Of a stretch of DNA of 24,737 bases, positions 1,561 to 24,737 are shown piece after piece (position 1 is the first letter of the stretch; each line of letters opens with the position of its first letter). The DNA comes from a virus, in IMG/VR virus record IMGVR_UViG_3300048593_000007, positions 1 to 24,737 of that record; one strand, 5' to 3'. Under the pieces are notes generated by a model, which ran no database searches, was not told the DNA's origin, and saw only the letters and a program-made list of their open reading frames with translations. Made by a program: the position numbers and the translations under genes.

Positions 1561-1568
1561 CAAATTTA
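1561..1568 (-). promoter_or_regulatory. TAAATTTG -7 box upstream of the internal virion protein genes
   Basis: On the minus strand TAAATTTGTA fits the Bacteroidota -7 consensus TAnnTTTGY and lies 17 bases before the ATG at 1543, overlapping the stop codon of the preceding gene. No TTG is found at the expected -33 spacing, so this is a weak candidate. Confidence 0.35.
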
Positions 1569-2582
1569 CTGAAAACTTTTGAATGATGTACTACTTAATG
1601 AAAATAATTCCACTTCGTCTGTACTATCATTCTCAAGCTCTACGTTCATGTATACACCACGAACGCCATAAGACTCAACTTGAGAGTTTTTAACACATAT
1701 TATAAAGTCTCCAGGTGATGGTAACGCACCAAAAGTTATATCTATATCTATGCTATCATCTGTGTATGACACTATATCACCCAAGAAAAATAAAGTACCT
1801 AATGAATTTTTGTAAAGCTTATCACCAATACTTATAGATGTCTTGTCTATGTTGTTTGGAAATGTCACTATTCCAGTAGTAGGCGTAGGGCTAGTAGCTG
1901 TATCAACCTCACCAATACCTTGAGTTGAAAGTGATTTTATAGATATTGTATTGTCTTGTCGTCTTATATAAGCAAACCAAAAACCTTCTTTTTCAACAAA
2001 ATAAGCGTATGGAGTCTCGGCCGTCTGTAGATTTGTATCTATGTATGCCGTCCAAGGTTCATTACTGTTTATCGATAGATTTTTAAACACCTTGTTATCT
2101 AACGGACTGGCGTTAAATATCGTCTTTATTTTTGAGTTGTATTGAACACCGTAGAAATTATTCCTAGTGAGATTAGTATTATGCCTCCATAGATCACCAT
2201 CCTTCATGGTGTAAAATACGTTATTAAGCTCAGTCATCCAATCTGGATTGAACGACCAGAATGAATTCCATCCTTGACTTACAGTAGAATATGTTATCGT
2301 CTTGTAGTCGCTATCGCACTTCTCTACAATAAAACTTAAAAAGTAGTCGTTCTCAATCAAGTCAAACTGACCTAAAGGACAGTCAAGAGTCCCGATTTCT
2401 CCTATTACATTCTCATCTCCATCTTCAAGAGACCATCCTTCTCTAAGTGGATATATAAAGAAAGAGCCTTCAAATGCAGAGAACTCATAATAGTCGCCAG
2501 TTTTTCCCTCTATAATACTGGTCTCAAATGTTACCACATTTCCTTCTAGGTCTACATATGTTATTTTTATACAGTCGCACAT
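1566..2582 (-). CDS. Tail-associated protein carrying a muzzle-type C-terminal module
   Basis: A 338-residue protein starting MCDCIKITYVDLEGN. The ATG lies one base after the muzzle stop (TAATATG), so the two are co-translated. The N-terminal 75 residues look like a small beta-rich attachment domain with several cysteines (C2, C4, C68). Residues 104-157 carry GWNSFWSF, FYTMKDGDLWRHN and NNFYGVQYNSKIKTIFN. From memory, such strings occur near the C-terminus of the large stabilization/muzzle proteins of crAss-like phages. Here that module sits in a separate chain directly downstream of the muzzle gene. The remainder is beta-rich, with Gly/Asp turns. It is probably a component of the tail tip or barrel exit and could contact the receptor. 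Coding status is secure; the homology claim needs a profile search. Confidence 0.8.
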   Translation of the reverse strand: MCDCIKITYVDLEGNVVTFETSIIEGKTGDYYEFSAFEGSFFIYPLREGWSLEDGDENVIGEIGTLDCPLGQFDLIENDYFLSFIVEKCDSDYKTITYSTVSQGWNSFWSFNPDWMTELNNVFYTMKDGDLWRHNTNLTRNNFYGVQYNSKIKTIFNASPLDNKVFKNLSINSNEPWTAYIDTNLQTAETPYAYFVEKEGFWFAYIRRQDNTISIKSLSTQGIGEVDTATSPTPTTGIVTFPNNIDKTSISIGDKLYKNSLGTLFFLGDIVSYTDDSIDIDITFGALPSPGDFIICVKNSQVESYGVRGVYMNVELENDSTDEVELFSLSSTSFKSFQ

Positions 2583-2583
2583 A

Positions 2584-5500
2584 TTATGTTGGTGTTGCTA
2601 GTTGTAATAATGTAAATTCTTCCTCTAGTCCATCGCAGTATGTAATAGTTACTTTAGCCGTTCTGAACATCTCTCCATCGTTTAATTCAACTGATCCGTA
2701 TATATCCTCATTTCCAAAACCAGATGATATAGGTAGTGTCAACCAAGTCTGATTTGATGAAAGCGTCCATGATGTATTTGATGTTATTGTAAATAAAAAC
2801 AACGTCTTTGCAGCAGCACTAGTAACAGATATTGTTGGAGCTATAGATAGTTCGCAAGGGTTGACAGATTGATCGTTAAATGATATAACATATTGATTGT
2901 TAAATGGATCAAAGCTTCCTAACTTCTGAGTGTTTGGATTGTCTTTCATTGTATCTCTGAAGTAGTTTTTCATACCACTATCAGATATCTCTATAACCTC
3001 ATCATTTATCATTTGCAGCACAGCACCGCGACGAGCATCAGCAAAGAACAATATGTTTGAGTGTCTTGCAAAACTCTCTGGGTTGTTGCTTATACCATAC
3101 TCAGATGGGTGAGCCACTTGATTACCAAGAACTTCTGGAACAGACGCTACCTGGCCACCACCAACTGCATCAACCAATAGATTCTTGCCATATAAAACAC
3201 TTGTTATTTTGTCTTGATGTAATACCAATAAATCTGTATCTCTAGCATACAATTTTTGTATTGGTCCGTATGTAACGTCTAAGTTTTTAAAGTTTGCTGT
3301 AGATAAGTTAAACTCGTTAAGATTATTTAGCTGAGTAGCTCCAACATAAACACCACTATAAGTTAAAGATGTCTCTTTTAATTGTTGCTTATAGTCCTCA
3401 ATGGTGGTCAAAGCTCTTTGGCTGTACCTCATTTGAGGCTGTAAGAACGCATCTAAAATCCTATTAGACTCAACACCATTACCGAACGCAAATGCATTAA
3501 AATCTGAGTTTTGTGATGTTGGATGGTTGATGTCTATTACTAACGGAAGACTTGTCGTTTGGTCTTGCTCATTTATATTGTAGTACACTTTACCTCCAGT
3601 TACTAGACCAGTTCCAGGGAATGGTAGATCTATAACCATAGCGTAGTCTGTAACATATACTATATTATAGTATCCATTAGCTGGACCTATTGATGGATTG
3701 TTACTTTTAACATATATATTTTCCCCAACATTAAATGAATGTATTACGTCTGTTGACAATGGATTATTAGGATCTAAAGGTCCTAATACTGTTAGGCCTA
3801 CGGCTTCTGGTACAGATGGAAAAACAGTTGATCCGTCAGTAAAATCAGAATAAACCCAAGATACTTTATGGAGTCCATTTTCTATCCTGTAAGTCTTACT
3901 CAACTCATAATAAATATCATTGTCTGTTTTTGTTGGAACTGTCTCTGCTGACAACTTAGGTCTTCCTGGTGACTGTTTTACAGTTAGTTCTACTGTTATT
4001 TCGTTTCTTATATAAGAAGGTATACCTGTTCCAGCACCAAAACCTCTTATGACCATATATAAGTTTCCAGTGTTTGCTTCCGTTTGATACATGTAATTGC
4101 TATTACCAGGAGTTCCATTTGATGAGAAAAATCCACCATTTCTAAATGTAACGTAATCAGCAGCTCCAACTAATGTTACGGATTGATCATATTGATCAAA
4201 AGTAGTATAAGCTCCACTTGCCCAAAACCATTCTTCTAAATTTTTATAATAATCAACTCCATTTGTCCAAGTGTTTGTATACTGTCTAGTAGTAGATCCA
4301 GGATTACCGTCTCTTACTATTTTTATTTTTATTTCAGCAAAAGGATATATAGGTGAATCAAAATTTATTAATGCGGCACCACCATAATCTGCTCTAGGCA
4401 TATCTATTATGTACTGATTGTTATATAGACCATTATTAGATCCTGGAAACATTGGAGTTCCAATATATCCAGTTGTTCCAGCTGGGCTATTATATCCTCT
4501 TACATTAAATATAAAAACATCACCTATTGTATATCCTGTGTTAGCATCCCAAATTATACCTAAACTCACATAATCTGAAGCTCCAACTGTTCCAAATGTT
4601 AAAGTGTCTGAAAGAGTAGAAGGTATTATTATAGGTAAAGTCCAAGTTGCTGTAGACAAATCTATATCCCTAGTATATTCATATGAACTTGAACTTAATA
4701 TCCTTACAGCTATTCTGCTATCTGTATTTGCTATAGATGAAGAAGCACTAGATATAGCTAATAGTGAAGGGTATGTACTTTCAATTGTATTATCTCCAGA
4801 AACATCATAAAAAACTGGAGTTGTGTTTACACTTATTATAGGTTTTAATCCAACTGGATTTGGAGTTTCACCACCAGTTCCAGTTCTAGGACCTCTACCA
4901 GTAGAAGCGTCATATGCTGTATATGTAGACCCATCATTTAAGAATGATGAACCATCCGTCTTAATTTTAAAATATAAACCTTCTGGAGCACTAGAAACAA
5001 ATCCAGCTTGTTTATATTCAAGCTCAAGTATTTTAAATTTATTATTTACATGAGTAGCTGTAAAACTAGCAGTCTTAAATATTATATATTGACCTAATAT
5101 TATTTTATCTCTATCTGATTCATTTATAAGAAAATATCTAAAACTACCATCTATAAAAAAAGTTCTAGGAAATACATTATAGTATTCACCAGTAGGTTGC
5201 TTAAGAACAAATCTAAAATTAGTGGCCCAATTAGGAGCTTGGTTGTTTAAAGTTACACGAATAGAATTTTGATAATCTGATCTAGTTGATGGTACATAAA
5301 CAGAATTATTTTCTGTAGTAAGAACCGTAGTCATTCTTCCGTACTCATCAGTATAAACAAGACCAATCTCATAATCTCTATCAGATCTAAATGTTCTCCT
5401 AGCTGATGTTCCAGATATTAAATCAGAAACAACCTCAAGACTATAGTCAATCAATATATCTTGATTAAACGCATCTTTAAGATCTCTAAATTGACTATAA

Positions 5501-6516
5501 TTTCCATACACTAATCTATTTCCTATAACATTCTGGCATTTAGCTAACAATGGAACATTATCAAACAGTCTAGTTATTTGAGATACGTCTAATGGTCCAT
5601 ATATTTTATTATTTGAAAACTCTATAGTATATACAACGTTGTCTGATAATCCTATTTCTCCTTTGTTATAACTATCTATAACATAAGTATTTAATCCAGA
5701 AGTGTCATAAAAAACTACTTGTATTTCTTTAACAAATTGATTACCAGTTTCAAAGGTTACATCAATTTTATTAAATATGTTTTCCATACCAGTATTATCA
5801 CCAGAATCAAAATCAAAAAAGAATGTATCTCCTTGGAATGCTACACCAGAAAATGGAGATAAAGAACTATATTGATTATCTACATATTTATATCGATAAG
5901 CGAAATACAAAAATTTTCTCTCTATATTATTTGTTATTTCTGGATCTCCGTCAGACTTTAAATATATCTTTGGAGCATTCAATGGTGGACGAAGAATTAC
6001 CTGTGTATCAAGATCAATTCTAGGATCATCGTCAGACCAAGATTTAGCTCTAGCAATATTTATTCTCCTTGGTGGATTAAGACCATCAGACCAAAATAAA
6101 AATGGTCCAAGATTACCAAATGAAGGTATGTAGTTTATACCAGTAACGCAGTAGTTTTTGTTAAAGTTTAACTGACCTGTAGTACTCAATAATACTTTTG
6201 TCGTTACATCAGTCAATTGGTTATACTCGAATACAGCATCAAAGTTATCACTAGTAACAAGCCAATATATCAAGTTTTGAGCCTCATACGCAACAGCACC
6301 TATAGCTCTTGCATTATCAACAGACAAACCAGTTACTGTGGCTATGTCAGACATTTTATCATTACCTCTAGAATTCTGAACAGCTCCAATAGTAGATCCT
6401 TGTGACGTATCTATAGTTACGTTTAACGCATCTAAGTACTCTCCATCTGGGATAAGACGTTCGTCTATATCCTTGTTCATCTTTCCAGCAATAAAAGTCT
6501 TGTCTAGTTTTATCAT
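2584..6516 (-). CDS. Tail stabilization/muzzle protein with C-terminal BACON-like domain
   Basis: A 1310-residue structural protein. The N-terminus KMNKDIDERLIPDGEYLDA (from residue 12), followed by the N-V-T-I and G-A-V-Q-N-S-R-G-N strings, is the signature I know from the stabilization/muzzle proteins of crAss-like and related podoviruses, which form the barrel at the end of the short tail. The chain is beta-rich, with many Ser/Thr/Gly/Asn loops in the middle. Residues about 1225-1306 match the BACON fold pattern: TSNTSWTL, NQTWLTL, SSGFGN, then an R-T-A-K-V-T-I-T strand and a final E-F-T-L-L-Q strand. BACON domains are thought to bind glycans or mucin. The ATG overlaps the preceding gene's stop (ATGA). 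CpG is much rarer in about 4320-5880 than at the gene's 3' end, suggesting a swapped central module. Confidence 0.9.
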   Translation of the reverse strand: MIKLDKTFIAGKMNKDIDERLIPDGEYLDALNVTIDTSQGSTIGAVQNSRGNDKMSDIATVTGLSVDNARAIGAVAYEAQNLIYWLVTSDNFDAVFEYNQLTDVTTKVLLSTTGQLNFNKNYCVTGINYIPSFGNLGPFLFWSDGLNPPRRINIARAKSWSDDDPRIDLDTQVILRPPLNAPKIYLKSDGDPEITNNIERKFLYFAYRYKYVDNQYSSLSPFSGVAFQGDTFFFDFDSGDNTGMENIFNKIDVTFETGNQFVKEIQVVFYDTSGLNTYVIDSYNKGEIGLSDNVVYTIEFSNNKIYGPLDVSQITRLFDNVPLLAKCQNVIGNRLVYGNYSQFRDLKDAFNQDILIDYSLEVVSDLISGTSARRTFRSDRDYEIGLVYTDEYGRMTTVLTTENNSVYVPSTRSDYQNSIRVTLNNQAPNWATNFRFVLKQPTGEYYNVFPRTFFIDGSFRYFLINESDRDKIILGQYIIFKTASFTATHVNNKFKILELEYKQAGFVSSAPEGLYFKIKTDGSSFLNDGSTYTAYDASTGRGPRTGTGGETPNPVGLKPIISVNTTPVFYDVSGDNTIESTYPSLLAISSASSSIANTDSRIAVRILSSSSYEYTRDIDLSTATWTLPIIIPSTLSDTLTFGTVGASDYVSLGIIWDANTGYTIGDVFIFNVRGYNSPAGTTGYIGTPMFPGSNNGLYNNQYIIDMPRADYGGAALINFDSPIYPFAEIKIKIVRDGNPGSTTRQYTNTWTNGVDYYKNLEEWFWASGAYTTFDQYDQSVTLVGAADYVTFRNGGFFSSNGTPGNSNYMYQTEANTGNLYMVIRGFGAGTGIPSYIRNEITVELTVKQSPGRPKLSAETVPTKTDNDIYYELSKTYRIENGLHKVSWVYSDFTDGSTVFPSVPEAVGLTVLGPLDPNNPLSTDVIHSFNVGENIYVKSNNPSIGPANGYYNIVYVTDYAMVIDLPFPGTGLVTGGKVYYNINEQDQTTSLPLVIDINHPTSQNSDFNAFAFGNGVESNRILDAFLQPQMRYSQRALTTIEDYKQQLKETSLTYSGVYVGATQLNNLNEFNLSTANFKNLDVTYGPIQKLYARDTDLLVLHQDKITSVLYGKNLLVDAVGGGQVASVPEVLGNQVAHPSEYGISNNPESFARHSNILFFADARRGAVLQMINDEVIEISDSGMKNYFRDTMKDNPNTQKLGSFDPFNNQYVISFNDQSVNPCELSIAPTISVTSAAAKTLFLFTITSNTSWTLSSNQTWLTLPISSGFGNEDIYGSVELNDGEMFRTAKVTITYCDGLEEEFTLLQLATPT

Positions 6517-12267: not shown

Positions 12268-14700
12268 TTATCTAGGTTCGAATGAATCCAAGTCAAAACC
12301 ATCTAATGAATCTTCGTTTGATTCGAAATCCATAGGAGGTAGGTTGTTCTTTCTCTGGTTAATCAGCTCAGACTGTCTGCTAGCCTGTATATCAATACGT
12401 TTGTCTTTAGCTTTCTCTTTGTCTTCCTCTCTCTTTTTCAATTGCTCTGCCTCCATGCCTTTTAATTGCATGTTGTATTGGAACTCTTGATCCATCAACT
12501 GACGCTTAAGATCTGCCTCTGCTTGTAACTGTTGTACAGCAAACTGCATCTCTGCTTGACGTAACTGTATCTTAGCTTGAGCTTCCATCTGAACGAGTTG
12601 AGCTTTTGATTCAGCAGCAGCTTGCTGAGATTGAATATTAGATTGCATTTGCATTCTGAACTCCATCTCTTTTTGCTTTTGTTGCTGTTCCATCCTCTTC
12701 TTTCTCTTCATTTTAAGTAGCTCATTAGCCAACTTAATATTACTAACCATTCTAATATCAATAGCATCTTCCAAATCAATGGTTTGTTGCTGAAGTGCGA
12801 TTTGAATATTTGCCTCAAGGCGTTGCTTTTCTTCTTCATCTGGAGCTAGCTCAATAAAAATACCGAAGTTGTGTAAATATAAATCTTTTATATCCTCAAG
12901 TATAGCTACATTGTACTTTCCTATCTGCATCGCAAAATCTTCAGCGAAGTCAGCATATTCAAGTATGTCAGCTATTCTTATTGATATACATTCAGCCATT
13001 CTTTTTGTTACGTTTAAACCAGCGGTAAGTATGTGTCTAGTGGCTGTGTTGCTGTTTAGTGCAGCTAGTTTCTGAACACCAACAAGAGCATCTGGACTAG
13101 GAGTTGAAGCATCTCTAGCTTCATTTATTCCTGTCACGTCTCTGATCATATTCAGATTGTAATTATATACGTTTATCAATGCGGCCATTTTAGACTGACC
13201 GCTATTTGAACTTAACTCTTGTATAGGAACTCTTCCATTATTAAACTCGCCATCTTGTGTATAGCTTCTACCGATAACACTACCAGTTTGGAAATAAAGC
13301 TTAAGTGCATCCTCTGGGTTATAAGCAGCACCAGTACCAAGATCAACCTCATTTATACCATCAGCATCTATGAATACACCGTCTGGAACAACGCGAGCCA
13401 TAACTTGCTGTAACTTTAAATGTGTTAGCTGTATCTGATCAGCAAAAGGTATCATCCTTCTCACAAGAGATTCTATGTTGCCTTTATACATCCTAGGTGC
13501 ATAGGCAACATAATTAGGCAACGCCTTTTGTGTAGCAGATTTAGGTCGCACCATATTCTTCATCAGTTCCCATTTGACTAATATATTGGTACCTCCTACC
13601 AATATACCTTCATACCATGCGTCCCTTACAGCTTCTACTCTTTCAAACATCATTCCTTCCTCAACAGGAGGATTGAAGTTTCCGTCTTTTCTTATTACTC
13701 TCTCACCACCATTTTCTAACAATTTTTTCTTCCACACAAAACGCATGTCTGTCTTGTAGTTAAAATACAATAGTGTAACGACCTCATTTAAAAATGCGTC
13801 GTCTTGATACTGTCTGATGATAGGAAAGTAGTCATACCAAGCAGAACTAGCGTTCTTTATCTCTTCTAGTTCTTCTTTAGTTAGATTTGGGTTGATCTTT
13901 AATAACTCAGTATAATGTACTTGTTTTACTTCTCCGAAATAATAACAGTCAGAAAAGTCTGGTTTCTCTGTATAACTATGAATCCAATTAGCTGGATCTA
14001 CGTAATCAATCTTAACACCGTCATTAATTAAGAACGTGTGTCTCATTACGCCTACACCAAGAGTAGTCATATCGTAATCAAACAATCTCTTTAACTCAAG
14101 GTAATCGTTCATCTTAAGAACAGTGTCAATAGCAATCTCTTCTGCTATCTCTATAGACGGCTTATACTTCATCTGCATATACAGAGAAAGCTCTTCATCA
14201 TTTTCTGGAAGTTCTTCTGGATTTACATTATATGCGTCTATACCGTACTCTTCTTTTGTTAACTCAAGGAATTCTTTAGCGACCATATCAGCCTCTATCA
14301 TATCTTGAAACAAACTCTTTTTCTCAGCAGACATTACGTCTTGAGCTTCGGCCTTTATTTTAAAAAGCCTATCGTTCATTCCGTTAACAACGATATCAAC
14401 GAATTTAGGTATAATAGGAATTGGAGTCCAGTCTAAATTAAGCATAGACATGTCGCCATTTATAGCTAACTCATCCTTATACTTTTGTACTGGCTGTTCA
14501 CCACGAGCATATAACCTCAATCGATGATACTCTCCCCATTGATCGTAAAATCGACATGTGTTGTTTTTTCTCTTAAACCATTCACCCTCTATAGCCTTTC
14601 CGACCCTTAGGCCGTATTCAATGGTTTGTTTCTCCTCATCTGGGACCAACGCATTGGGAAATTGACCTGGGTAAATTATAACTGATGGTTTTTTCTCCAT
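12268..14700 (-). CDS. Portal protein
   Basis: An 810-residue protein starting MEKKPSVIIYPGQFPNALVP. It lies directly after the large terminase, whose stop overlaps its start (TAATG). The N-terminal half has the portal-like string Y-D-Q-W-G-E-Y-H-R-L-R-L-Y-A-R-G-E-Q (about 52-69), then N-L-D-W-T-P-I-P-I-I-P-K-F-V-D-I-V-V-N-G-M (about 97-117), a helix that in this family contributes to the core. The stem and crown region is around 450-600. Residues about 656-776 form a long Gln/Glu/Lys/Met-rich coiled coil, plausibly the C-terminal barrel extending into the capsid. The acidic tail ends D-S-F-E-P-R. It forms the dodecameric DNA gate to which the terminase docks. Size and flanking genes agree with crAss-like portals. 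Confidence 0.9.
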   Translation of the reverse strand: MEKKPSVIIYPGQFPNALVPDEEKQTIEYGLRVGKAIEGEWFKRKNNTCRFYDQWGEYHRLRLYARGEQPVQKYKDELAINGDMSMLNLDWTPIPIIPKFVDIVVNGMNDRLFKIKAEAQDVMSAEKKSLFQDMIEADMVAKEFLELTKEEYGIDAYNVNPEELPENDEELSLYMQMKYKPSIEIAEEIAIDTVLKMNDYLELKRLFDYDMTTLGVGVMRHTFLINDGVKIDYVDPANWIHSYTEKPDFSDCYYFGEVKQVHYTELLKINPNLTKEELEEIKNASSAWYDYFPIIRQYQDDAFLNEVVTLLYFNYKTDMRFVWKKKLLENGGERVIRKDGNFNPPVEEGMMFERVEAVRDAWYEGILVGGTNILVKWELMKNMVRPKSATQKALPNYVAYAPRMYKGNIESLVRRMIPFADQIQLTHLKLQQVMARVVPDGVFIDADGINEVDLGTGAAYNPEDALKLYFQTGSVIGRSYTQDGEFNNGRVPIQELSSNSGQSKMAALINVYNYNLNMIRDVTGINEARDASTPSPDALVGVQKLAALNSNTATRHILTAGLNVTKRMAECISIRIADILEYADFAEDFAMQIGKYNVAILEDIKDLYLHNFGIFIELAPDEEEKQRLEANIQIALQQQTIDLEDAIDIRMVSNIKLANELLKMKRKKRMEQQQKQKEMEFRMQMQSNIQSQQAAAESKAQLVQMEAQAKIQLRQAEMQFAVQQLQAEADLKRQLMDQEFQYNMQLKGMEAEQLKKREEDKEKAKDKRIDIQASRQSELINQRKNNLPPMDFESNEDSLDGFDLDSFEPR

Positions 14701-17700
14701 TATTTTATTATTTCGCTTCTGCTTCCACGATTATCGTATTTTACAAATTTAATACTTATTTTTGATTCTTTTCTCTCTGGTAAAAACATGTAACGCTTGA
14801 TCGCCATTAGTGCTAAACCAGAACTAATCGTGGCATCGTGCTTCGTTCTATCGTTTATATTAAACCTAGCCCAATCTTCTAAAGTTCTATTAAAATACAT
14901 GGATCCTATAACGCCAGATTCTCTGTATGTACCCTCGTTATCAAAGCCTACATGCTCCTCTATGTAAGTGTTAATTACAGATGCATGAGCTTGCCTCATA
15001 TCTTCTGATGAGTTAGGTATACCGCCTATCTCTATCTCAGTTTTAGACAACTTTGACTGATGTTTGTCTGGCCTGTTCATGGAGTATGCCCTGTATCCTC
15101 TGTTTTTAAAATGGTACAGCAGTCTAGCCTTGTTGTTTTCAGCAAGTATCGGCATACCATAAAACACACATGCCATAAGCACATCCTCGAAGAATATCTC
15201 AGCCGTTTGAGGTCTAGCTATGTACTCTAAAAAGAATTCATTGCACGGTACATTTTGCTCCATATGAAACGAAGTAACACCATGAAGAGCACCGTTAGAA
15301 CCACCCCCACCAACAACACCAGAGATATCATAAGGGTCACAACCAAAAGCACCAAGGCTTTCATTACCTGGATAAAATTTTCCATTTCTTACTATTTTTC
15401 TATTTCTTAATTCTTGATTAGGTATCCATGAAACTATAAACCTACCTTTAGGATCTGGAGTCCAAATAACCTCGCTATCAACCTCTCCGTTCTTCCAGTG
15501 GAAATAACCCCTAGTTAAAAACTTCTCCTTTATTAGAGAGTCATTGTAGTCTATCTGTTGATATATCTTAGTTAAGTTAAATAATGAATGCTTAGACTCA
15601 TCTCTAAATGCATGAGACTCAGTCCTTGGGTACTGTCTATAGAATTCATTAAGAGCGTCAGCATCAGATTTTAATGCGGCTACCTCGTTCTCCCACCAAG
15701 TAATAACGCCTTGAGTTATCATCTCACCATCTATACCCTTCACTGGTTTACTTGGATCTGTAAATACTGGCCATCCAAACTCATCGATATATCCTTCTAC
15801 GTTCCACTCCATAGGAATGAATAATGAATACAAACCACTCTTTGTTTGATGATTTGCTGACCTTTTAGATATACTGCTGTCGTAGTATAAATCCTTAAAA
15901 TTCTGACCGCCTTTTGGAAGAGCATTAGACGTTGATCCCATCATACACTTACCTACTATCTTAGCTCCTAAACGAAGACACGTCTTTGTTACCCTCCAGT
16001 TGTTTAAGATGTTTTCTGGTTTCTCCCATTTTCCGCTATTCATGCTCAATGTGAAATCATCTAATATTAATTTTCTTTCATTGTCATTTTCTGCATCAAC
16101 TTGTATTCCAACATATTCACCTAAACCTATATGACTTACACTTACTTTATTTCTTCTTCCTTTTGTTTTAGGTTGATATCCTTCAAATGATTTTTTAGCT
16201 GTTAATAAAGGTATTATTGATAAATCTCCAGATATAAATATTCTATACACATCTGTATCATAATTACTTTTTTTGTGAGAGATATTACTACATGATAATC
16301 CGCAAGAAAGCGCTATAAATCTAATTTGCTCCACCAAATCTTTTCTACTCATTCCTATCTCTATAGATTTCTTTTTCTTATCGCAATATCCATCTGTTTC
16401 TATTATACCAGCTAAAAGTTGTAATCTTGACTCTATTGATGATTTTATGTAATCTTCTGGTATATGTTTGTTTTTATATACATTTATTTTTTTAAGTTCT
16501 TTATTTATTCCTTTGAATGAGAATTCAACTATTTTATCGGATGTAGATTTTTTTAATTCGAAATCTATATTCATCATTAAAGACATCTTTCCTAGATAAT
16601 CAAGTATCTCAGGCTCCTCTGTTTTATTAACAAGTATAGTAAATGAGTTACTTCTTCCGTCACCTAACCAAAGACCTAATAAATAAGGAGGTATTCCATC
16701 AAAACAATCCTCTGATTCTATTCCTTTTGAAGCTACTCTTGTTATATGCCTTTTTAAACAATTAGAACTATTTATGTATTCCTCTGGAGTCATTATAACT
16801 TCTCCTTTACCATAACTGTTGAATAATAATCTATGATTCTTGGTTACTACATAATCTTTAGCATAAGGTTGACTAACTAAATATTTTTCTGTTATTCCAG
16901 ATGTTTTCTTAACAACCGTTTTAATAATACCTCCTTCAACAATTACCTTGTCTCCTATATTAATGTCTTTTATTTTTTTAAATTTAAAATCAGACATAAG
17001 TATATTTGTTTCGGGGTCGTAACACTCATCGTGAACAAGCATCAGTAATTTCTCACCGTCATAACTGTTGTCTGCTGTATTCTTCCAGTCAATAGTTGTA
17101 TCAAGACCTTCAATATCTTCAGTCTTTTCTTCATCCATGTTTCTCCTAGTGATCTTACTTGCTGGAACCCTAAACGCTAACTCAGTCTTCGGGTTATCCA
17201 TACCGTCCTGTATAGGTTTGAAGAAGAAAGGATAGTTTCTTACAATGGGTACTACCTTATCTGTAAACATCTTCTTGGCATCACTACCAGTCTTTGACAG
17301 TATACCTACTCTAGCGTCTTTTGCTAAAGTTGCAGTATTACAGACCTCAGCAGACGACATAAATGAGAAACCAGAACGTCTGTTCTTTAGGTAACACATA
17401 CCAAAAGATCTGTTGTCAGCCTTGCATGCTTCCCAGTATATATAAAATATTCTGTTAGATTCCCTAAATTCTGGAAGACCTATATCTATCTTTGTCCATT
17501 GTAAATACATATAATGAGTTCCAGTTATATATGTTGGCTTACCGTTATTCATAAACCAATGCCCATAATCTCTTCTGTCAAACTCTTGTTCTATATAATC
17601 TACATACTTTGATTTAAATGTATTGTCTTTTCTATTCCAATCAAATACAGTTTTTATCTTCTGTAGTTCTGATGGATATTCTTCTGCTACCCACTTGTTT

Positions 17701-17909
17701 GAACCTTTATGTAATGAGCTTGGTTCTGATGGAAGCGCAATCTTTACACCGTTTATATCATATATTTCACCTATAGTACCATCCCTTGATATCACAACTA
17801 GATCATAATCTGGATGATAACCATACGTCCAAGATTTCTTTGCATTTTTTGTTGTTAATGCAGTTTTGTGTATGTGATTATTTACTATAGTGTAAAGACT
17901 ATTTTCCAT
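14700..17909 (-). CDS. terL: Terminase large subunit interrupted by an intein
   Basis: A 1069-residue precursor made of a 740-residue terminase split by a 329-residue intein (residues 296-624). The ATPase has a degenerate Walker A region at 173-184 (KNRRSGFSF), Walker B L-L-M-L-V-H-D-E at 288-295 with catalytic E295, and a coupling motif around G-S-T at 658-660. The C-terminal RNase H-like nuclease shows the acidic triad in G-C-D-P-Y-D (D858), L-A-E-N-N (E924) and K-H-D-A-T (D1025). Joined exteins would read H-D-E-S-G-K-W-E-K-P, close to the D-E-A-G-K-W string I recall in crAss-like terminases, which supports the splice junction. The enzyme cuts concatemeric DNA and pumps it into the procapsid through the portal encoded just downstream. 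The product is functional only if splicing occurs. Confidence 0.95.
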   Translation of the reverse strand: MENSLYTIVNNHIHKTALTTKNAKKSWTYGYHPDYDLVVISRDGTIGEIYDINGVKIALPSEPSSLHKGSNKWVAEEYPSELQKIKTVFDWNRKDNTFKSKYVDYIEQEFDRRDYGHWFMNNGKPTYITGTHYMYLQWTKIDIGLPEFRESNRIFYIYWEACKADNRSFGMCYLKNRRSGFSFMSSAEVCNTATLAKDARVGILSKTGSDAKKMFTDKVVPIVRNYPFFFKPIQDGMDNPKTELAFRVPASKITRRNMDEEKTEDIEGLDTTIDWKNTADNSYDGEKLLMLVHDECYDPETNILMSDFKFKKIKDINIGDKVIVEGGIIKTVVKKTSGITEKYLVSQPYAKDYVVTKNHRLLFNSYGKGEVIMTPEEYINSSNCLKRHITRVASKGIESEDCFDGIPPYLLGLWLGDGRSNSFTILVNKTEEPEILDYLGKMSLMMNIDFELKKSTSDKIVEFSFKGINKELKKINVYKNKHIPEDYIKSSIESRLQLLAGIIETDGYCDKKKKSIEIGMSRKDLVEQIRFIALSCGLSCSNISHKKSNYDTDVYRIFISGDLSIIPLLTAKKSFEGYQPKTKGRRNKVSVSHIGLGEYVGIQVDAENDNERKLILDDFTLSMNSGKWEKPENILNNWRVTKTCLRLGAKIVGKCMMGSTSNALPKGGQNFKDLYYDSSISKRSANHQTKSGLYSLFIPMEWNVEGYIDEFGWPVFTDPSKPVKGIDGEMITQGVITWWENEVAALKSDADALNEFYRQYPRTESHAFRDESKHSLFNLTKIYQQIDYNDSLIKEKFLTRGYFHWKNGEVDSEVIWTPDPKGRFIVSWIPNQELRNRKIVRNGKFYPGNESLGAFGCDPYDISGVVGGGGSNGALHGVTSFHMEQNVPCNEFFLEYIARPQTAEIFFEDVLMACVFYGMPILAENNKARLLYHFKNRGYRAYSMNRPDKHQSKLSKTEIEIGGIPNSSEDMRQAHASVINTYIEEHVGFDNEGTYRESGVIGSMYFNRTLEDWARFNINDRTKHDATISSGLALMAIKRYMFLPERKESKISIKFVKYDNRGSRSEIIK
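16038..17024 (-). mobile_element. Intein with LAGLIDADG homing endonuclease domain in terL
   Basis: Block A begins at Cys296 (C-Y-D-P-E-T-N-I-L-M), right after Walker B Glu295. Block B is V-T-K-N-H-R-L-L with T356 and H359. Two LAGLIDADG motifs are present: L-L-G-L-W-L-G-D-G (410-418) and L-L-A-G-I-I-E-T-D-G (498-507). Blocks F/G run from Y-V-G-I-Q-V-D to L-D-D-F-T-L-S-M-N, ending at Asn624 with Ser625 as the +1 extein residue. The penultimate residue is Met instead of the usual His. By hand count CpG is about 9 per kb here, against roughly 30 per kb in the adjacent 3' terminase coding, consistent with a foreign element. The endonuclease domain would spread the intein into intein-free terminase alleles. 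Confidence 0.93.
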
Positions 17910-19550: not shown

Positions 19551-21164
19551 TTATGCTAAGATACCTAAATTTCTTAACGCTTTAACTACTTGTCCAATTG
19601 TATAACCATCAAATGTGGCTGTATCATTTAATATCCCTGATGTATTAGCTACAAATGTAGCTGCTGCAACTCCTGTTGTTTCTTGATACAACTTAACAAT
19701 AGAACCATTCTCTGTTCTAAAATGTGGTGCTGCATTACCTGCTGTGATGTCATTTGAGTATTGTACATATCCATCAGTTATACTTACAGAAGGAACTTTT
19801 GGAGTTGCTGTTTGGTATTGATTTAATCCTGCTCCATCACCTCTAACTTCAAATGGAATAACAAAAGCATTAGAACCAAATCCTGATGCTCCAGCAGGAG
19901 CTACTGAAAATTGTATAGGAGCTCCATTACCTGTTCCTGAGCCACCTTGAGATTGTATTCTAAAATACTTACTTGATAAATCAGTATTTAATGTAAAACC
20001 ATTTGCAACACCTCCCACTGATAATAACATATTATTGACATTTGCAGCTGACTGAACGAAGCCTCCTGTTCCAATTTGCATTACATTAAATGGATATGTT
20101 TCAGAACCCATCACACATTGATTGTTTGCTGTTAATATTGCTCCAGCTCCTATTGCTATAGATGTACTCCATCCACCTGTACTCAATCCCCAACCAATTC
20201 CTGTTTGGGTATTACCAGCTGGAGATGTACCTGTACCTGTTCCAACAATAGTGCTTCTTGTTCCTGATGTTCCTAATGCAACAGAATTATAACCAATAAA
20301 TAATGATTGAGCAGCATTTGTTCCTCCTGTTAATGTTCCTGCGTGTCTAAATGGTACTGATTGTATCCATTCAGAACCATCTCCTCTAAATGATACTAAA
20401 TCAGCTGTATCAGCACTATTCCTAACTCTAAATGCTATATCAGTTGATAATGCTCCTTGGGCTCTTACATCAAGTCTTGCACCTGCTGTGGATGAACCAA
20501 TAACAACTTGTGATGATGAATCAGCCCAAAAAGAAGTACCAACTGCTTGTATTCTTGTTCTTAATGCTGAAGACCAATTGTAAAGTTTTAAAGCACCTGT
20601 ATATGTACTACCTGGTGCGGCATTAAAATCATTACCAAGTTCAGCTTGTGAGTTACCAGTTGTTCTTAACATTAAAGTTGCTGCTTGATTATAATCTTGA
20701 ACAAAAGTACAAGTAGCAAAAGAACCTGATTGAAATACTATTGTTTCATTTCCTTGTATCTTAAAATTAGTTACTGTTCCAGAACTATTTAATACTTGCA
20801 ATGGTATATCAGTAGCAGCTGTTCCAACAGCCTTTAATCCTAATCTTTTTAATGTATTGTCATAAGTGAAGTTAGCATCTTGCTGAACTACTCCACCAGC
20901 TTGAAAGAATACTCTACCATCTGTTCCTGATGTTACAGGAGTTGTGCCTACTGTTAGACCTGTAGATATAGTCCAGCTTCTATTAGCACTAAGGTCTTGA
21001 GTTGTACCATTAATAGTAATAGTACGTGTATCTGGAACGCTACCATCTTGTATATCCTCAATAGTATATACGTTAGAAGGGCTGTTGGCCTGAGCTGATT
21101 TTCTTTCATATGTATCAACGTCTGGAGCTATTCCTATAAACTTTGTGCCTACTGGTATACTCAT
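19551..21164 (-). CDS. Tail/head fibre protein with YadA-like repeats
   Basis: A 537-residue protein in four parts. Residues 1-40 are an N-terminal anchor shared with the neighbouring gene (MSIPVGTKFIGIAPDVD onward, ending Y-T-I-E-D-I-Q). Residues 45-70 carry T-R-T-I-T-I-N-G-T-T-Q-D-L-S, a linker common in fibre proteins. A long Gly/Ser/Thr/Asn-rich beta shaft follows. At about 288-352 there are YadA-head-like turns (I-G-Y-N-S-V-A-L-G, S-T-I-V-G-T-G, T-S-I-A-I-G-A-G-A). The C-terminal tip is F-D-G-Y-T-I-G-Q-V-V-K-A-L-R-N-L-G-I-L-A (518-537), probably for trimerisation. This suggests a trimeric fibre attached to the virion through its first 40 residues and reaching out to the host surface. Whether it sits on head or tail cannot be told. 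Confidence 0.85.
   Translation of the reverse strand: MSIPVGTKFIGIAPDVDTYERKSAQANSPSNVYTIEDIQDGSVPDTRTITINGTTQDLSANRSWTISTGLTVGTTPVTSGTDGRVFFQAGGVVQQDANFTYDNTLKRLGLKAVGTAATDIPLQVLNSSGTVTNFKIQGNETIVFQSGSFATCTFVQDYNQAATLMLRTTGNSQAELGNDFNAAPGSTYTGALKLYNWSSALRTRIQAVGTSFWADSSSQVVIGSSTAGARLDVRAQGALSTDIAFRVRNSADTADLVSFRGDGSEWIQSVPFRHAGTLTGGTNAAQSLFIGYNSVALGTSGTRSTIVGTGTGTSPAGNTQTGIGWGLSTGGWSTSIAIGAGAILTANNQCVMGSETYPFNVMQIGTGGFVQSAANVNNMLLSVGGVANGFTLNTDLSSKYFRIQSQGGSGTGNGAPIQFSVAPAGASGFGSNAFVIPFEVRGDGAGLNQYQTATPKVPSVSITDGYVQYSNDITAGNAAPHFRTENGSIVKLYQETTGVAAATFVANTSGILNDTATFDGYTIGQVVKALRNLGILA
21044..21164 (-). repeat. N-terminal anchor module, copy 2
   Basis: This segment codes for the first 40 residues of the long fibre. 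It is a diverged direct repeat of 21675-21795; about 29 of the first 39 residues are identical by eye, including M-S-I-P, F-I-G-I, E-R-K-S, Q-A-N-S-P and V-Y-T-I-E. Confidence 0.8.
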
Positions 21165-21165
21165 T

Positions 21166-21795
21166 TTAATATGTTTTGTTTAGTATAAATATATCACTGT
21201 AAATGCTGTTACCTACGTTAGCTGCTCCCCATTGTACTGTTATATCAAGTGTATTAGATATAGTAGTATTAAATGTTGTATTATTAACTTGATTAAAAGC
21301 AAATCCTTCCAAAACACCATTTGATGTTTTCACATAGTGAAATGTTCCTAATGAAACTATAGAAGCTACACCAGCAGCACCTAACTGTCTAATGGTAAAA
21401 TCTATATTTAAAGAGAATACATCATTTGTGATGTTAGAAATAGGTTGAGCACCGCTATCAAGCAAGATCACAGAACCAGATTTAACTCTTATTCTTATAG
21501 TTTGATTGTTAGTAGCATTTAATATACCAGCCATTACAGCTCTAAAGCTATCTCCTATTTGAAATCCATTGGCTGGCACAGATAGTGATCCCACACCTCC
21601 ATTGATCAGAGATGTCTCTACTATAGTATTAGTAATAGGAGTACTATTTGCCGTCTGAGCAAACAAACCTATATTACCTTGTATCTGCTCTATTGTATAA
21701 ACTTCAGTAGGACTGTTTGCTTGTGTTGATTTTCTTTCAACCATGTCAACTCCTGGTAGAATTCCTATAAATCGTGTGCCAGATGGTATACTCAT
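21166..21795 (-). CDS. Short fibre-like protein sharing the fibre anchor
   Basis: A 209-residue protein. Residues 1-40 (MSIPSGTRFIGILPGVDMVE and on to Y-T-I-E-Q-I-Q) are a diverged copy of the anchor of the longer fibre next door. The rest is a beta-rich jelly-roll-like domain with I-T-N-T-I-V-E-T-S-L-I, N-Q-T-I-R-I-R-V-K-S-G-S-V-I-L-L and N-T-L-D-I-T-V-Q-W-G-A-A-N-V-G-N-S-I-Y near the end. That pattern is common in phage appendage-tip and carbohydrate-binding domains. The stop is followed directly by the long fibre's ATG. A short appendage competing for, or sharing, the same virion attachment site as the long fibre is the simplest reading. The domain assignment is inference. Confidence 0.8.
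   Translation of the reverse strand: MSIPSGTRFIGILPGVDMVERKSTQANSPTEVYTIEQIQGNIGLFAQTANSTPITNTIVETSLINGGVGSLSVPANGFQIGDSFRAVMAGILNATNNQTIRIRVKSGSVILLDSGAQPISNITNDVFSLNIDFTIRQLGAAGVASIVSLGTFHYVKTSNGVLEGFAFNQVNNTTFNTTISNTLDITVQWGAANVGNSIYSDIFILNKTY
21675..21795 (-). repeat. N-terminal anchor module, copy 1
   Basis: This segment codes for the first 40 residues of the 209-residue protein and is homologous to 21044-21164. Similar DNA in both copies (identical first 12 bases and several shared blocks) indicates duplication or domain sharing rather than chance. Confidence 0.8.
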
Positions 21796-22257: not shown

Positions 22258-22395
22258 TTATTTTCCTTGACCTCTATATCCCTTCTTGTATAGTTTACTG
22301 GTCTTTATTTTTGACTGTTTTGTTTTAGCATGAACACCTGGTCGGCTTACATACTTTTTTTCAAATCTCTTTACCTCGTCTGCCTTCTTTTTCAT
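22258..22395 (-). CDS. Small very basic protein downstream of the amidase
   Basis: A 45-residue protein: MKKKADEVKRFEKKYVSRPG, then V-H-A-K-T-K-Q-S-K-I-K-T-S-K-L-Y-K-K-G-Y-R-G-Q-G-K and a stop. The start overlaps the amidase stop (ATGA). About 40% of residues are Lys or Arg. I recall the S-R-P-G-V-H-x-K-T-K core with a Y-R-G-Q-G end in many Bacteroidota phages, in or near the late region, which makes a chance frame unlikely. A nucleic-acid-binding role would fit the charge, but nothing else supports it. No membrane segment is present, so it is not a second holin. Confidence 0.82.
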   Translation of the reverse strand: MKKKADEVKRFEKKYVSRPGVHAKTKQSKIKTSKLYKKGYRGQGK

Positions 22396-23033
22396 AATCC
22401 TTTTAACATTTTAATTAATCGTGGACAAGGGTAAACGTCTGACTTATCAACCCTAACAGAGTTATGGGTGTATAGACCGTTCTCACCTTTTAATGCACGT
22501 TTAGATAAATCCCATATGTCATCGTTATATTTTAGACTTATGCCATATGTCTCACCAAGATAAACAAGAAGCTCTCTTGTAGCCTCTATCTGCTTGTCTG
22601 AGTATTTGTGCCAAAGTTTATGTCTTTTGAATGGCTTATCTAAAACAGTAACCTCTGAAGGATCAACAACACCACCAACATAGTTATAATACTTTCCACC
22701 TTTCTCTACCAAGTACGCCCAGTTAGTTATCTCTATACCTACCGAATACTTATCTAAGTTCTTATATGGCAATCCTTGACCTTTAAACACGCTGTCTTTT
22801 ACACCTAAGTGCCACGCCCAATCTCTTGAACTAAACGCTTGTGCTATCGTACCTTCGTATCCTATCACAAATGCAGTAGCTACACGCTCTTTGTTAGATT
22901 CCCAACCTTTAATTGTGTTTACCGCGTTCTTATTACCAGCTGTGTGGTGTAAATAGATTTGATTTTTAGCAGTGTTCTCTGCAATGTACTGAGACTCTGG
23001 AAGTCTTTGCTGTACGATTTTAGTAGTATCCAT
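22392..23033 (-). CDS. N-acetylmuramoyl-L-alanine amidase (endolysin)
   Basis: A 213-residue enzyme of the Amidase_2/PGRP type, which cuts the bond between muramic acid and the L-alanine of the peptide stem. Zinc and active-site residues can be read: I-Y-L-H-H-T-A-G (H29/H30), W-H-L-G (H75), S-V-G-I-E-I-T-N-W (E101), and T-H-N-S-V-R-V-D-K-S-D-V-Y-P-C-P with H190, K197 and D199 or C203. There is no signal peptide or cell-wall-binding repeat, so export would rely on the holin next door. The start is at the stop of the holin gene (TAATG). It belongs to a compact lysis cassette with the holin and the probable spanin just upstream. Confidence 0.93.
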   Translation of the reverse strand: MDTTKIVQQRLPESQYIAENTAKNQIYLHHTAGNKNAVNTIKGWESNKERVATAFVIGYEGTIAQAFSSRDWAWHLGVKDSVFKGQGLPYKNLDKYSVGIEITNWAYLVEKGGKYYNYVGGVVDPSEVTVLDKPFKRHKLWHKYSDKQIEATRELLVYLGETYGISLKYNDDIWDLSKRALKGENGLYTHNSVRVDKSDVYPCPRLIKMLKGL

Positions 23034-23455
23034 TATTGTTTAATTTTTTCAGCTTCCTCTTTTGCTCTTAATACAAATGATCTAAGAGACTTTATGATAT
23101 TCTTGCCTGTTACAGCCTCATAATTTTCGTTGATTGACAATATCTCAACAAACACACACCCAAGTGCGACAACCTTTGTCATTATTAGCTCAACAGAGAT
23201 GAACTCAGCCACTAAATCAGCAGCGATATACTTCTCTATCAAGAACACGAAAACAATAGCCCCAGAGTAAAGAACTGACTTACTTATGGTATGTGATAAC
23301 TTCCTGCTCTTTATAGAGCCCCATCCGTTCTTTTTAACACTTCGCCAGATGCCGAACATAGTGTCTAATAATATAGCACATATCGCTATGTATATCATTG
23401 GCTTTACTGGACTTATTATAGCTAGTAAGGATGCTATTAAGATCTTAATTTTCAT
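23033..23455 (-). CDS. Holin (phage holin family 4-like)
   Basis: I take the ATG at 23455 (MKIKILIASLLAIISPVKPM), giving 140 residues; an upstream TTG at 23479 would add 8 residues and lengthen the overlap with the spanin gene. Hydrophobic segments lie at about 5-15, 20-36, 60-74 and 87-107. Between them is a basic loop K-K-N-G-W-G-S-I-K-S-R-K, and the last segment leads into the conserved-looking I-N-E-N-Y-E-A-V-T-G-K-N. This layout matches the holin families of Bacteroidota and Firmicutes phages with an S-R-K loop and an E-N-x-x-x-x-x-G end. It would open the inner membrane at the set time to free the amidase encoded directly downstream. Confidence 0.85.
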   Translation of the reverse strand: MKIKILIASLLAIISPVKPMIYIAICAILLDTMFGIWRSVKKNGWGSIKSRKLSHTISKSVLYSGAIVFVFLIEKYIAADLVAEFISVELIMTKVVALGCVFVEILSINENYEAVTGKNIIKSLRSFVLRAKEEAEKIKQ

Positions 23456-23885
23456 TTTTTGAATATATGATGTAAACAACTAAAAATATAAACAAGATGC
23501 CTAGTATTCTATATAGCCACATCTTGTTGTCTTTCTCATAGTACTTTACTGGTATCTTTCTTTCAATGATCTTCTCGTAAGGTTTTTCTATAAATACAGT
23601 GTCGCACTTTCCGTTTATATACACCTTGTCATCAACTCTCCAAACTTTAACCTTTAAACGATCTTTTGTTATAGTGACGGTATCGTACAACTGATCAACC
23701 TTTACAACAGTATCTACCCTTACCTCTGGGATTGTTATTCTAATTGTGTCTCGTATGGTATCCTTTATTATCAAGGTATCAGTAGTCAATAACCAAGGAT
23801 GATTTTTAACCAACCTATTGAAACGTTGTTTTGGACTACATGACAATAGACCGATTGATATTATGATATATAGGATGATCTTCAT
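23445..23885 (-). CDS. Probable unimolecular spanin (lipoprotein with C-terminal membrane anchor)
   Basis: A 146-residue protein. It starts with a lipoprotein signal, MKIILYIIISIGLLSC, with the lipobox G-L-L-S-C and Cys16 as the acylation site (next residue Ser, so outer-membrane sorting is likely). A periplasmic part (about 17-118) is rich in D-T-x-x-I-x repeats and beta-prone, with little coiled coil. Residues 122-141 (M-W-L-Y-R-I-L-G-I-L-F-I-F-L-V-V-Y-I-I-Y) form one transmembrane helix and a short cytoplasmic tail follows. One chain linking the outer and inner membrane is the defining plan of u-spanins such as T1 gp11, which fuse the two membranes in the last lysis step. It overlaps the holin start by 11 bases. 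Confidence 0.82.
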   Translation of the reverse strand: MKIILYIIISIGLLSCSPKQRFNRLVKNHPWLLTTDTLIIKDTIRDTIRITIPEVRVDTVVKVDQLYDTVTITKDRLKVKVWRVDDKVYINGKCDTVFIEKPYEKIIERKIPVKYYEKDNKMWLYRILGILFIFLVVYIIYSKNEN

Positions 23886-24109
23886 TATTCAAAAGGTGGT
23901 GGTGTTGGTTTTGGCTCGTATGGAATTAAGTCTAAATCCTTAACCCAAAGGAAAGACGGATTAACACACTGCTCCATTTCTTCAATTGATATTACCCAAT
24001 TATCATTTAGGTCCTCCACAGGGTTAAAAAAACTGTCTGGAGCGTACCACTGCCCAACAAGTTGGTCTTTCTGTTCAACGGTTAATAAACCTACATATAT
24101 TGTACTCAT
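23885..24109 (-). CDS. Small conserved phage protein before the lysis cassette
   Basis: A 74-residue acidic protein: MSTIYVGLLTVEQKDQLVGQ, then W-Y-A-P-D-S-F-F-N-P-V-E-D-L-N-D-N-W-V-I-S-I-E-E-M-E-Q-C. A Pro-rich tail ends P-K-P-T-P-P-P-F-E. I recall small proteins with L-T-x-E-Q, A-P-D-S-x-F-N-P and W-V-K-D-L strings in many Bacteroidota phages next to fibre or lysis genes, without a described role. Start and stop each overlap a neighbour (ATGA with the endonuclease gene; the stop with the spanin ATG), so it is co-translated. The string F-N-P-V-E-D-L-N-D-N-W could bind calcium or a partner protein; that is a guess. Confidence 0.78.
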   Translation of the reverse strand: MSTIYVGLLTVEQKDQLVGQWYAPDSFFNPVEDLNDNWVISIEEMEQCVNPSFLWVKDLDLIPYEPKPTPPPFE

Positions 24110-24711
24110 ACTCTTTGATATTTTAAAATTCCTTTTTTCATTGCTCTTATAAATGTGGTAATATTCATATCAGCATAAATAGATGCTTCTTTAACGCTAC
24201 CATAATAAATCCCAGTTTCAAAATCTAATACAGGCTTACTATTCCAATGATTGAAACCTACATAGTCTTTCATTTTTTCAGCTCTTTTAATGTAGCCTTC
24301 TTTAGGTCTTTTAGTTCCTAATTTAGCTAATCTCATTTTTTCTTTTGTCTCTGGAGTATGTTGTTTTCCTTTAAAATGATTGCTTTCAGTCATCCTTTTT
24401 CTCCTTGCTTCAAGTTGTTCTTCTGTTGCCTTAACTCCCCAACATCCATCTCCACCATCAGTTATGTTAACTAATAAGCCACCATTTGATTTTTTACCAT
24501 ATAATGCAATAAGTTCTTTTTCTTTTTCTTTTGCATCTTCAACAGATAAATCATCAAAAATAATATCAACTCTATATTCTGTATGCTTTGTGATAGAATG
24601 CCAATGTTTATTTCTTGTTTGTTTAGTATAACATCTTGCTTTATCAGAACCTATACCAATATAAAACGGTTCATTCTTATCTAATCTTATATGTCTGTAA
24701 ACGTATGCCAT
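24106..24711 (-). CDS. GIY-YIG homing endonuclease with NUMOD3-type DNA-binding region
   Basis: I start at the ATG at 24711 (MAYVYRHIRLDKNEPFYIGI), 201 residues. A TTG at 24717 that extends the frame lies inside the promoter-like box. The GIY-YIG nuclease core has Y-V-Y at 3-5 (in place of GIY), Y-I-G at 17-19, a catalytic Arg around 26, and the E-K-E-K-E-L-I-A-L-Y-G helix around 61-71 followed by N-I-T-D-G-G-D-G. The region H-F-K-G-K-Q-H-T-P-E-T-K-E-K-M (about 110-125) is a NUMOD3 motif. The C-terminus S-V-K-E-A-S-I-Y-A-D-M-N-I-T-T-F-I-R-A-M looks like a NUMOD1/IENR1 helix-turn-helix. This is a free-standing selfish gene of the segA/I-TevI type. Confidence 0.9.
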   Translation of the reverse strand: MAYVYRHIRLDKNEPFYIGIGSDKARCYTKQTRNKHWHSITKHTEYRVDIIFDDLSVEDAKEKEKELIALYGKKSNGGLLVNITDGGDGCWGVKATEEQLEARRKRMTESNHFKGKQHTPETKEKMRLAKLGTKRPKEGYIKRAEKMKDYVGFNHWNSKPVLDFETGIYYGSVKEASIYADMNITTFIRAMKKGILKYQRV

Positions 24712-24714
24712 ATA

Positions 24715-24730
24715 CAAATTTACAAAATTA
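24715..24730 (-). promoter_or_regulatory. Tandem TAnnTTTG boxes at the start of the endonuclease gene
   Basis: On the minus strand TAATTTTG (24723-24730) and TAAATTTG (24715-24722) lie side by side just before the ATG at 24711. Both fit TAnnTTTG. The -33 region is outside the window. This may be the promoter that opens the lysis region. Confidence 0.45.
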
Positions 24731-24737
24731 TAGGATT

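Follow-up and report, generated by a model that had tools for sequence, protein, structure and literature searches.

Introduction

The muzzle of crAss-like phages, the presence of BACON domains in phages and the occurrence of tandem BACON proteins near crAss tails are all already known. BACON modules are immunoglobulin-like and typical of Bacteroidota. A crassvirus muzzle protein is expected to form a hexamer with a crass fold at the end of the tail. The muzzle serves as the gate of the crAss-like tail and has been described as one highly conserved chain; in gp44 of crAss001 it contains a seven-bladed propeller below which lie two domains, IG1 (between blades 2 and 3) and IG2 (within blade 3), whilst the gate loop belongs to blade 4 and the crass domain forms the very tip (PMC10172136). 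Among relatives of gp44, length variation has been described in the crass and IG2 regions (PMC10172136).

Phage BACON domains are known in other arrangements. In crAssphage, gp64 is a separate ORF with eight tandem BACON repeats, and single phage BACONs, nearly all from gut phages, have been reported away from tail proteins (PMC6949934). Direct carbohydrate binding by BACON domains in general has been described as unproven (PMC6949934), and the BACON of BoGH5A, placed N-terminally towards the membrane (PMC11216935), is reported to be a spacer or link that is not itself carbohydrate-binding (PMC6949934, PMC11216935). In a 2026 study, another phage displaying BACON-bearing proteins from gut phages was reported to gain epithelial binding (PMC13370021). 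Among the open-licence papers searched we found no report of a BACON domain within a muzzle, or of a muzzle split inside its propeller. Here, we describe a viral locus with both, contained in a stretch of 24,737 nucleotides that was analysed as a whole (the window) and for which a preliminary description had proposed a BACON-like domain fused to the C-terminus of the muzzle.

Results

A muzzle encoded by two genes

The features of the locus are listed below, with coordinates counted along the window.

2584-6516, minus strand: ORF1, muzzle chain 1, 1310 residues; N-terminal part through half a propeller blade, then BACON
2872-2931, minus strand: final muzzle strands before the break, TQKLGSFDPFNNQYVISFND, ORF1 residues 1196-1215, from the alignment with gp44 and relatives
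2590-2859, minus strand: BACON domain, ORF1 residues 1220-1309 (PF19190 26.4 bits when excised; AlphaFold pLDDT about 90; Z 12.2 against 3zmr)
2580-2586, minus strand: gene junction TAATATG, comprising the ORF1 stop, one base and the ORF2 start in a different frame
1566-2582, minus strand: ORF2, muzzle chain 2, 338 residues (PF25729, E 1.7e-18; phrog_18548, E 2.6e-56)
2304-2582, minus strand: o2N, the N-terminal domain of ORF2, residues 1-93 (AlphaFold pLDDT about 87 for residues 1-90)
1569-2303, minus strand: o2C, the muzzle C-terminal part, ORF2 residues 94-338, resuming with the partner strand KTITYSTVSQGWNSFW

ORF1 belongs to the crAss muzzle proteins (PF25731, E 1.2e-15; phrog_14478, E 2e-198), and its TQKLGSFDPFNNQYVISFND strands correspond to gp44 up to about residue 1197. 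The match of ORF1 to gp44 goes no further than that point, and its stop interrupts a beta-hairpin in one blade of the propeller. The C-terminal domain of crassvirus muzzles, PF25729, sits in ORF2 and not in ORF1, and a profile of ORF2 from residue 94 onward matches gp44 residues 1202-1285 (E 2.4e-15). With both of these matches in ORF2, we rejected ORF1 as a complete muzzle. The last 170 or so muzzle residues (gp44 numbering; crAss_MUZ_C) are thus found in ORF2 behind the small domain o2N, and a VIA search with the ORF2 model ranks the crAss001 muzzle chains first (Z 8.0 and 7.8). In phi38:1, elemoA and the environmental locus L040, a single gene runs through the break point with the equivalent of o2C contiguous with chain 1. 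Taken together, the position of the two matches and the single gene of these relatives lead us to conclude that the muzzle in the window is encoded as two proteins. The propeller is not carried whole on one polypeptide and is interrupted between the equivalents of gp44 residues 1197 (approximately) and 1202. The BACON domain is therefore not appended to the muzzle C-terminus, as first proposed; it stands at a chain break in a propeller hairpin, and the muzzle resumes in ORF2. Junctions in 12 relatives vary in length, and their starts and stops differ in sequence.

Both break points fall in a single tight hairpin of gp44 (DVYFTYK-D-HCLCYSELI), one on each arm. We infer from the sequence pattern that the break lies in blade 6, in the turn between the second and third strands (the B-C turn); the strand assignment relies on this pattern because the AlphaFold model of ORF1 residues 1000-1219 is unusable (pLDDT below 50), probably owing to a propeller fragment having been modelled without its partner. 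In propellers, turns between second and third strands share a face with the inter-blade links. Since this is the face bearing IG1, BACON probably lies on the distal side, although to the flank of the propeller and not at the very tip of the tail, which is the crass domain.

The BACON domain

When the domain was excised (window 2587-2865, minus strand), it matched PF19190, the viral BACON family, with 26.4 bits (E 6.7e-6), above the cut-off of 25; within full-length ORF1 the same profile gave 21.2 bits (E 2.9e-4), which is below it, as is the score of PF13004 on the excised domain (21.2 bits, cut-off 25). ORF1 residues 1220-1309 were modelled by AlphaFold from 22 sequences with pLDDT values of 86-93, and the top PDB match of this model in Foldseek is 3zmr, the BACON-GH5 xyloglucanase of Bacteroides ovatus (E 4.6e-6, rmsd 1.9 A). 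VIA gave the same structure at Z 12.2 (88 residues aligned at 2.1 A, chain residues 42-131), with the next row at Z 10.2. Sequence comparison points to the C-terminal region of sulfatase 9s8x as the closest relative of solved structure, both with the single protein as query (E 9e-4) and with the profile (E 4e-4). The fold is thus an Ig-like beta-sandwich of the 3zmr BACON type according to both structural searches, and a chance match is ruled out by the excised profile score together with the fold match. The proposal that the muzzle chain bears a BACON domain is therefore borne out, as is the motif pattern on which it was based, with TSNTSWTL, NQTWLTL, SSGFGN, RTAKVTIT and LLQ all lying within the last 70 or so residues of ORF1.

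Twelve columns are invariant across 20 BACON homologues; they take in the profile-pattern residues W, G, N, R and Q and look like fold residues. ORF1 holds one BACON and so does not match the tandem type of crAssphage gp64.

The small N-terminal domain of ORF2

The o2N domain is a beta-rich, Cys-rich, fast-evolving unit of about 90 residues for which Pfam gives no match above cut-off. It is not supported as a second BACON (profile-profile probability 1.2%), and a MucBP assignment was not accepted (E 0.0028; 18.8 bits against a cut-off of 23; one of 18 members only). The fold searches used the whole of ORF2, and the rows reported fall mostly on parts other than o2N; a phmmer search of ORF2 against the PDB returned antibody chains only (E above 0.01), taken as chance. 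In some relatives o2N is duplicated or nested. Two loci, L016 (9079-10095) and L030 (9079-10398), are 98-99% identical in DNA around o2N and differ by a 101-residue in-frame insertion, which is another o2N-like unit. A further relative of ORF2, with 559 residues (L077:5335-7014), has an extra N-terminal stretch of about 220 residues, with no Pfam match, before o2N.

Split and unsplit muzzles among relatives

Scans of IMG/VR and of phage records in GenBank gave 179 loci with both muzzle halves readable, of which 88 were left once near-duplicates had been removed. Of these non-redundant loci, 76 are split at the break point and 12 are unsplit. A BACON domain stands at this fixed position in 71 of the split muzzles, one in each ORF1 as in the window, and in none of the unsplit ones; the 71 include L226, whose BACON pattern (WYITVPTNDWLTLS...) scores below the profile threshold and was added by eye. 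On an earlier count of 70/76 against 0/12, Fisher's test gave p 9e-11, a value that describes the association and is not a true probability, because the loci are related. The view that the same sequence might be found in all muzzles as an ordinary domain is thus close to the truth for split muzzles and fails for the unsplit.

The gap between the halves ranges from -23 to several thousand bases, with whole genes between them in some loci. L085, inside the window-type clade, has cleanly lost BACON and kept the split, whilst L136 is split without any insert; BACON is therefore not needed for the split. L002, L036 and L057 are also split and carry other extensions in place of BACON. In nine loci (L047, L048, L050, L051, L054, L055, L058, L060 and L062) the muzzle is unbroken at this point and the last 100 or so residues of its C-terminal part are matched by a separate gene of 119-141 residues that lies some 2 kb downstream, which suggests that this lineage has a second split site of independent origin. 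No relative was found in bacterial genome contigs at the sensitivity used; freshwater or marine Flavobacteriia may be the hosts, as a reasonable guess.

A tree (FastTree, 436 columns, rooted on gp44) places the unsplit and BACON-less loci outermost, followed by those with a fused BACON-adhesin arrangement and then those with a separate adhesin gene. The window-type clade (support 1.0) is nested among the latter, with o2N present and the adhesin absent. These data suggest an order of events in which the adhesin was fused and later became separate, and this is offered as a suggestion only because several deep nodes are weakly supported.

Adhesin-like regions at the break

The label 'adhesin' used here reflects composition and Ig domains and denotes a putative function; family matches of these proteins are weak. 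In 15 non-redundant loci, an Ig-rich adhesin-like region of roughly 560-890 residues directly follows BACON in the same ORF. In 38 others the gene directly after ORF1 encodes an adhesin-like protein of about 540-1100 residues with threonine runs, some of these with a putative Ig domain (He_PIG). One N-terminal profile finds both arrangements: its match directly follows BACON within a single ORF in the 15 loci, and in the 38 it opens the following gene. The extensions that replace BACON in L002, L036 and L057 match this profile also (E 1e-13, 2e-36 and 1e-6 respectively, single-sequence searches). In several loci a second gene, a member of phrog_4417, follows the adhesin-like gene before the muzzle resumes; genes of this family, of about 309 residues, lie between the muzzle halves in many relatives (L027:11931-12857, L095:5047-5976, L226:9223-10155). 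No adhesin-like protein was detected in five records of about 60 kb from the window's subclade.

Divergence and constraint

Among 13 window-type genomes, median pairwise identity is 82% for the propeller before the break and 62% after it, compared with 39% for both BACON and o2N. Between the window and L007, BACON has a dN of 0.52 and a dS of 0.74, and the adjacent propeller part a dN of 0.07 and a dS of 0.88. Between the window and L005, dN and dS are 0.009 and 0.50 for the propeller part of the first muzzle half (propN) and 0.018 and 0.51 for o2C. Both muzzle halves are constrained, with dN far below dS. The fast divergence of BACON and o2N fits relaxed or low constraint and host-driven adaptive change equally well.

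Other genes in the window

All of the following lie on the minus strand. The ORF at 14700-17909 encodes a large terminase subunit with an intein-like insert (Hom_end_hint, Hom_end, LAGLIDADG_3) at residues 296-561 or thereabouts, the terminase matches resuming at residue 625. Within the structural gene region, 18186-18746 matches phrog_13932, annotated as co-chaperonin GroES (E 1.3e-15). Two adjacent ORFs (19551-21164 and 21166-21795) have a near-identical start, sharing 29 of their first 40 residues (MSIPxGTxFIGIxPxVD...ERKSxQANSP), and differ afterwards; they could possibly be exchangeable fibre-like proteins built on a common N-terminal anchor. The stretches 22392-23479 and 24106-24735 take in a lysis pair, made up of an Amidase_2 protein (E 3e-14) and a member of a holin family (E 3e-7), and, further on at the window edge, an ORF with a NUMOD3 motif, as in homing endonucleases.

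Discussion

We consider it probable that, in a widespread uncultured clade of crAss-like phages, the tail is closed by a two-chain muzzle, and that the hairpin break in it provides a lasting mounting site, with gains, fusions, moves to neighbouring genes and losses of BACON, of adhesin-like regions and of small Cys-rich domains. In such a muzzle, two separately translated chains would assemble in trans and jointly complete one beta-propeller. The break would fall at a turn joining two strands of one blade, with BACON extending the C-terminus that is left free on chain 1. In most relatives BACON would then serve as a spacer for a large Ig-rich adhesin-like region, whether fused behind it or supplied by the next gene; in the window's subclade, from which the adhesin appears to have gone, the exposed modules would be BACON itself and the small domain of chain 2. 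We lean, with some caution, towards such a role for BACON as an Ig-like spacer that carries or positions modules which may contact the host, because it stands between the tail and the adhesin-like region in the fused relatives and because the BACON of BoGH5A has been described as a spacer. There are points against this. In the window the chain ends at BACON, where a spacer would carry nothing; the weak family matches of the adhesin-like proteins tell against the mounting of adhesins; and a host-driven role is not favoured by a divergence that relaxed constraint would explain equally.

The preliminary description had envisaged BACON as itself binding a host surface glycan, acting as a receptor-binding module at the tail tip. 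BACON does diverge faster than its flanks and, in the window type, in which the adhesin was not found, it stands last on its chain, and the gut-phage BACON proteins that gave epithelial binding on another phage include one with a single BACON (PMC13370021). Against this, the twelve invariant columns resemble fold residues with no conserved binding patch in a variable context shown, the BoGH5A domain is described as a link without a binding function (PMC6949934, PMC11216935) and BACON has an internal position in the fused relatives, flanked by muzzle and adhesin; on balance we think a glycan binder unlikely, if still worth serious consideration. A structural clamp that joins the two muzzle chains or guides their assembly would account for the near-restriction of BACON to split muzzles (71/76, against 0/12 unsplit) and for two cysteines that are invariant across 20 homologues. 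However, split muzzles without BACON exist (L085, L136, L002, L036 and L057), and one would expect an interface clamp to be conserved, whereas BACON is among the least conserved parts, making this role less likely again, and rather improbable overall. The one-base separation of the two genes in the window, in different frames, might also raise the question of whether the split is real, or instead reflects errors in sequencing or assembly, gene decay or a single product made by frameshifting. Since the halves range from slightly overlapping to several thousand bases apart, with whole genes between them in some of the 76 non-redundant split loci, error and frameshifting cannot explain the split; with junction starts and stops that differ in sequence and a dN far below dS in both halves, we regard an unreal split as hardly credible. 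The reading of BACON as a spacer at a mounting site is the one that we prefer.

If the split is real in the virion, then in a large uncultured clade the gate would consist of two proteins, and the break would be a third place for host-contact variation besides the crass and IG2 regions. It would also provide a concrete setting for the role of a phage BACON, placed between tail and adhesin-like region much as bacterial BACONs are placed between membrane and enzyme.

Among the described systems close to this locus is gp44 of Bacteroides phage crAss001 (PDB 7qok, 7qol; PF25731, PF25729), which belongs to the same family, has the same order of parts, is matched by profiles at both ends and is the best VIA structural match of ORF2. 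Whilst gp44 is one 1371-residue chain with a tight turn, in the window the encoded chain is broken at that turn and BACON is added there. The closest named relatives are the muzzle of Cellulophaga phage phi38:1 (gp097) and those of the Flavobacterium elemo phages, at 38-40% identity and with the same structural gene neighbours, but in these the muzzle is a single uninterrupted gene without BACON. In Caudoviricetes ctfjg026 (MW202828) the muzzle is broken at the same place, with its second half as a separate 267-residue gene; there the extension matches the adhesin N-terminal profile, such that another domain occupies the place where BACON stands here. The BACON of BoGH5A (3zmr) and the C-terminal domain of sulfatase 9s8x share the fold and sequence pattern of the domain described here, yet they belong to bacterial enzymes, whereas this one belongs to a phage muzzle chain. 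The tandem BACON proteins of crAssphage are likewise near or in tail proteins, in contrast to the single BACON found here inside the muzzle chain itself.
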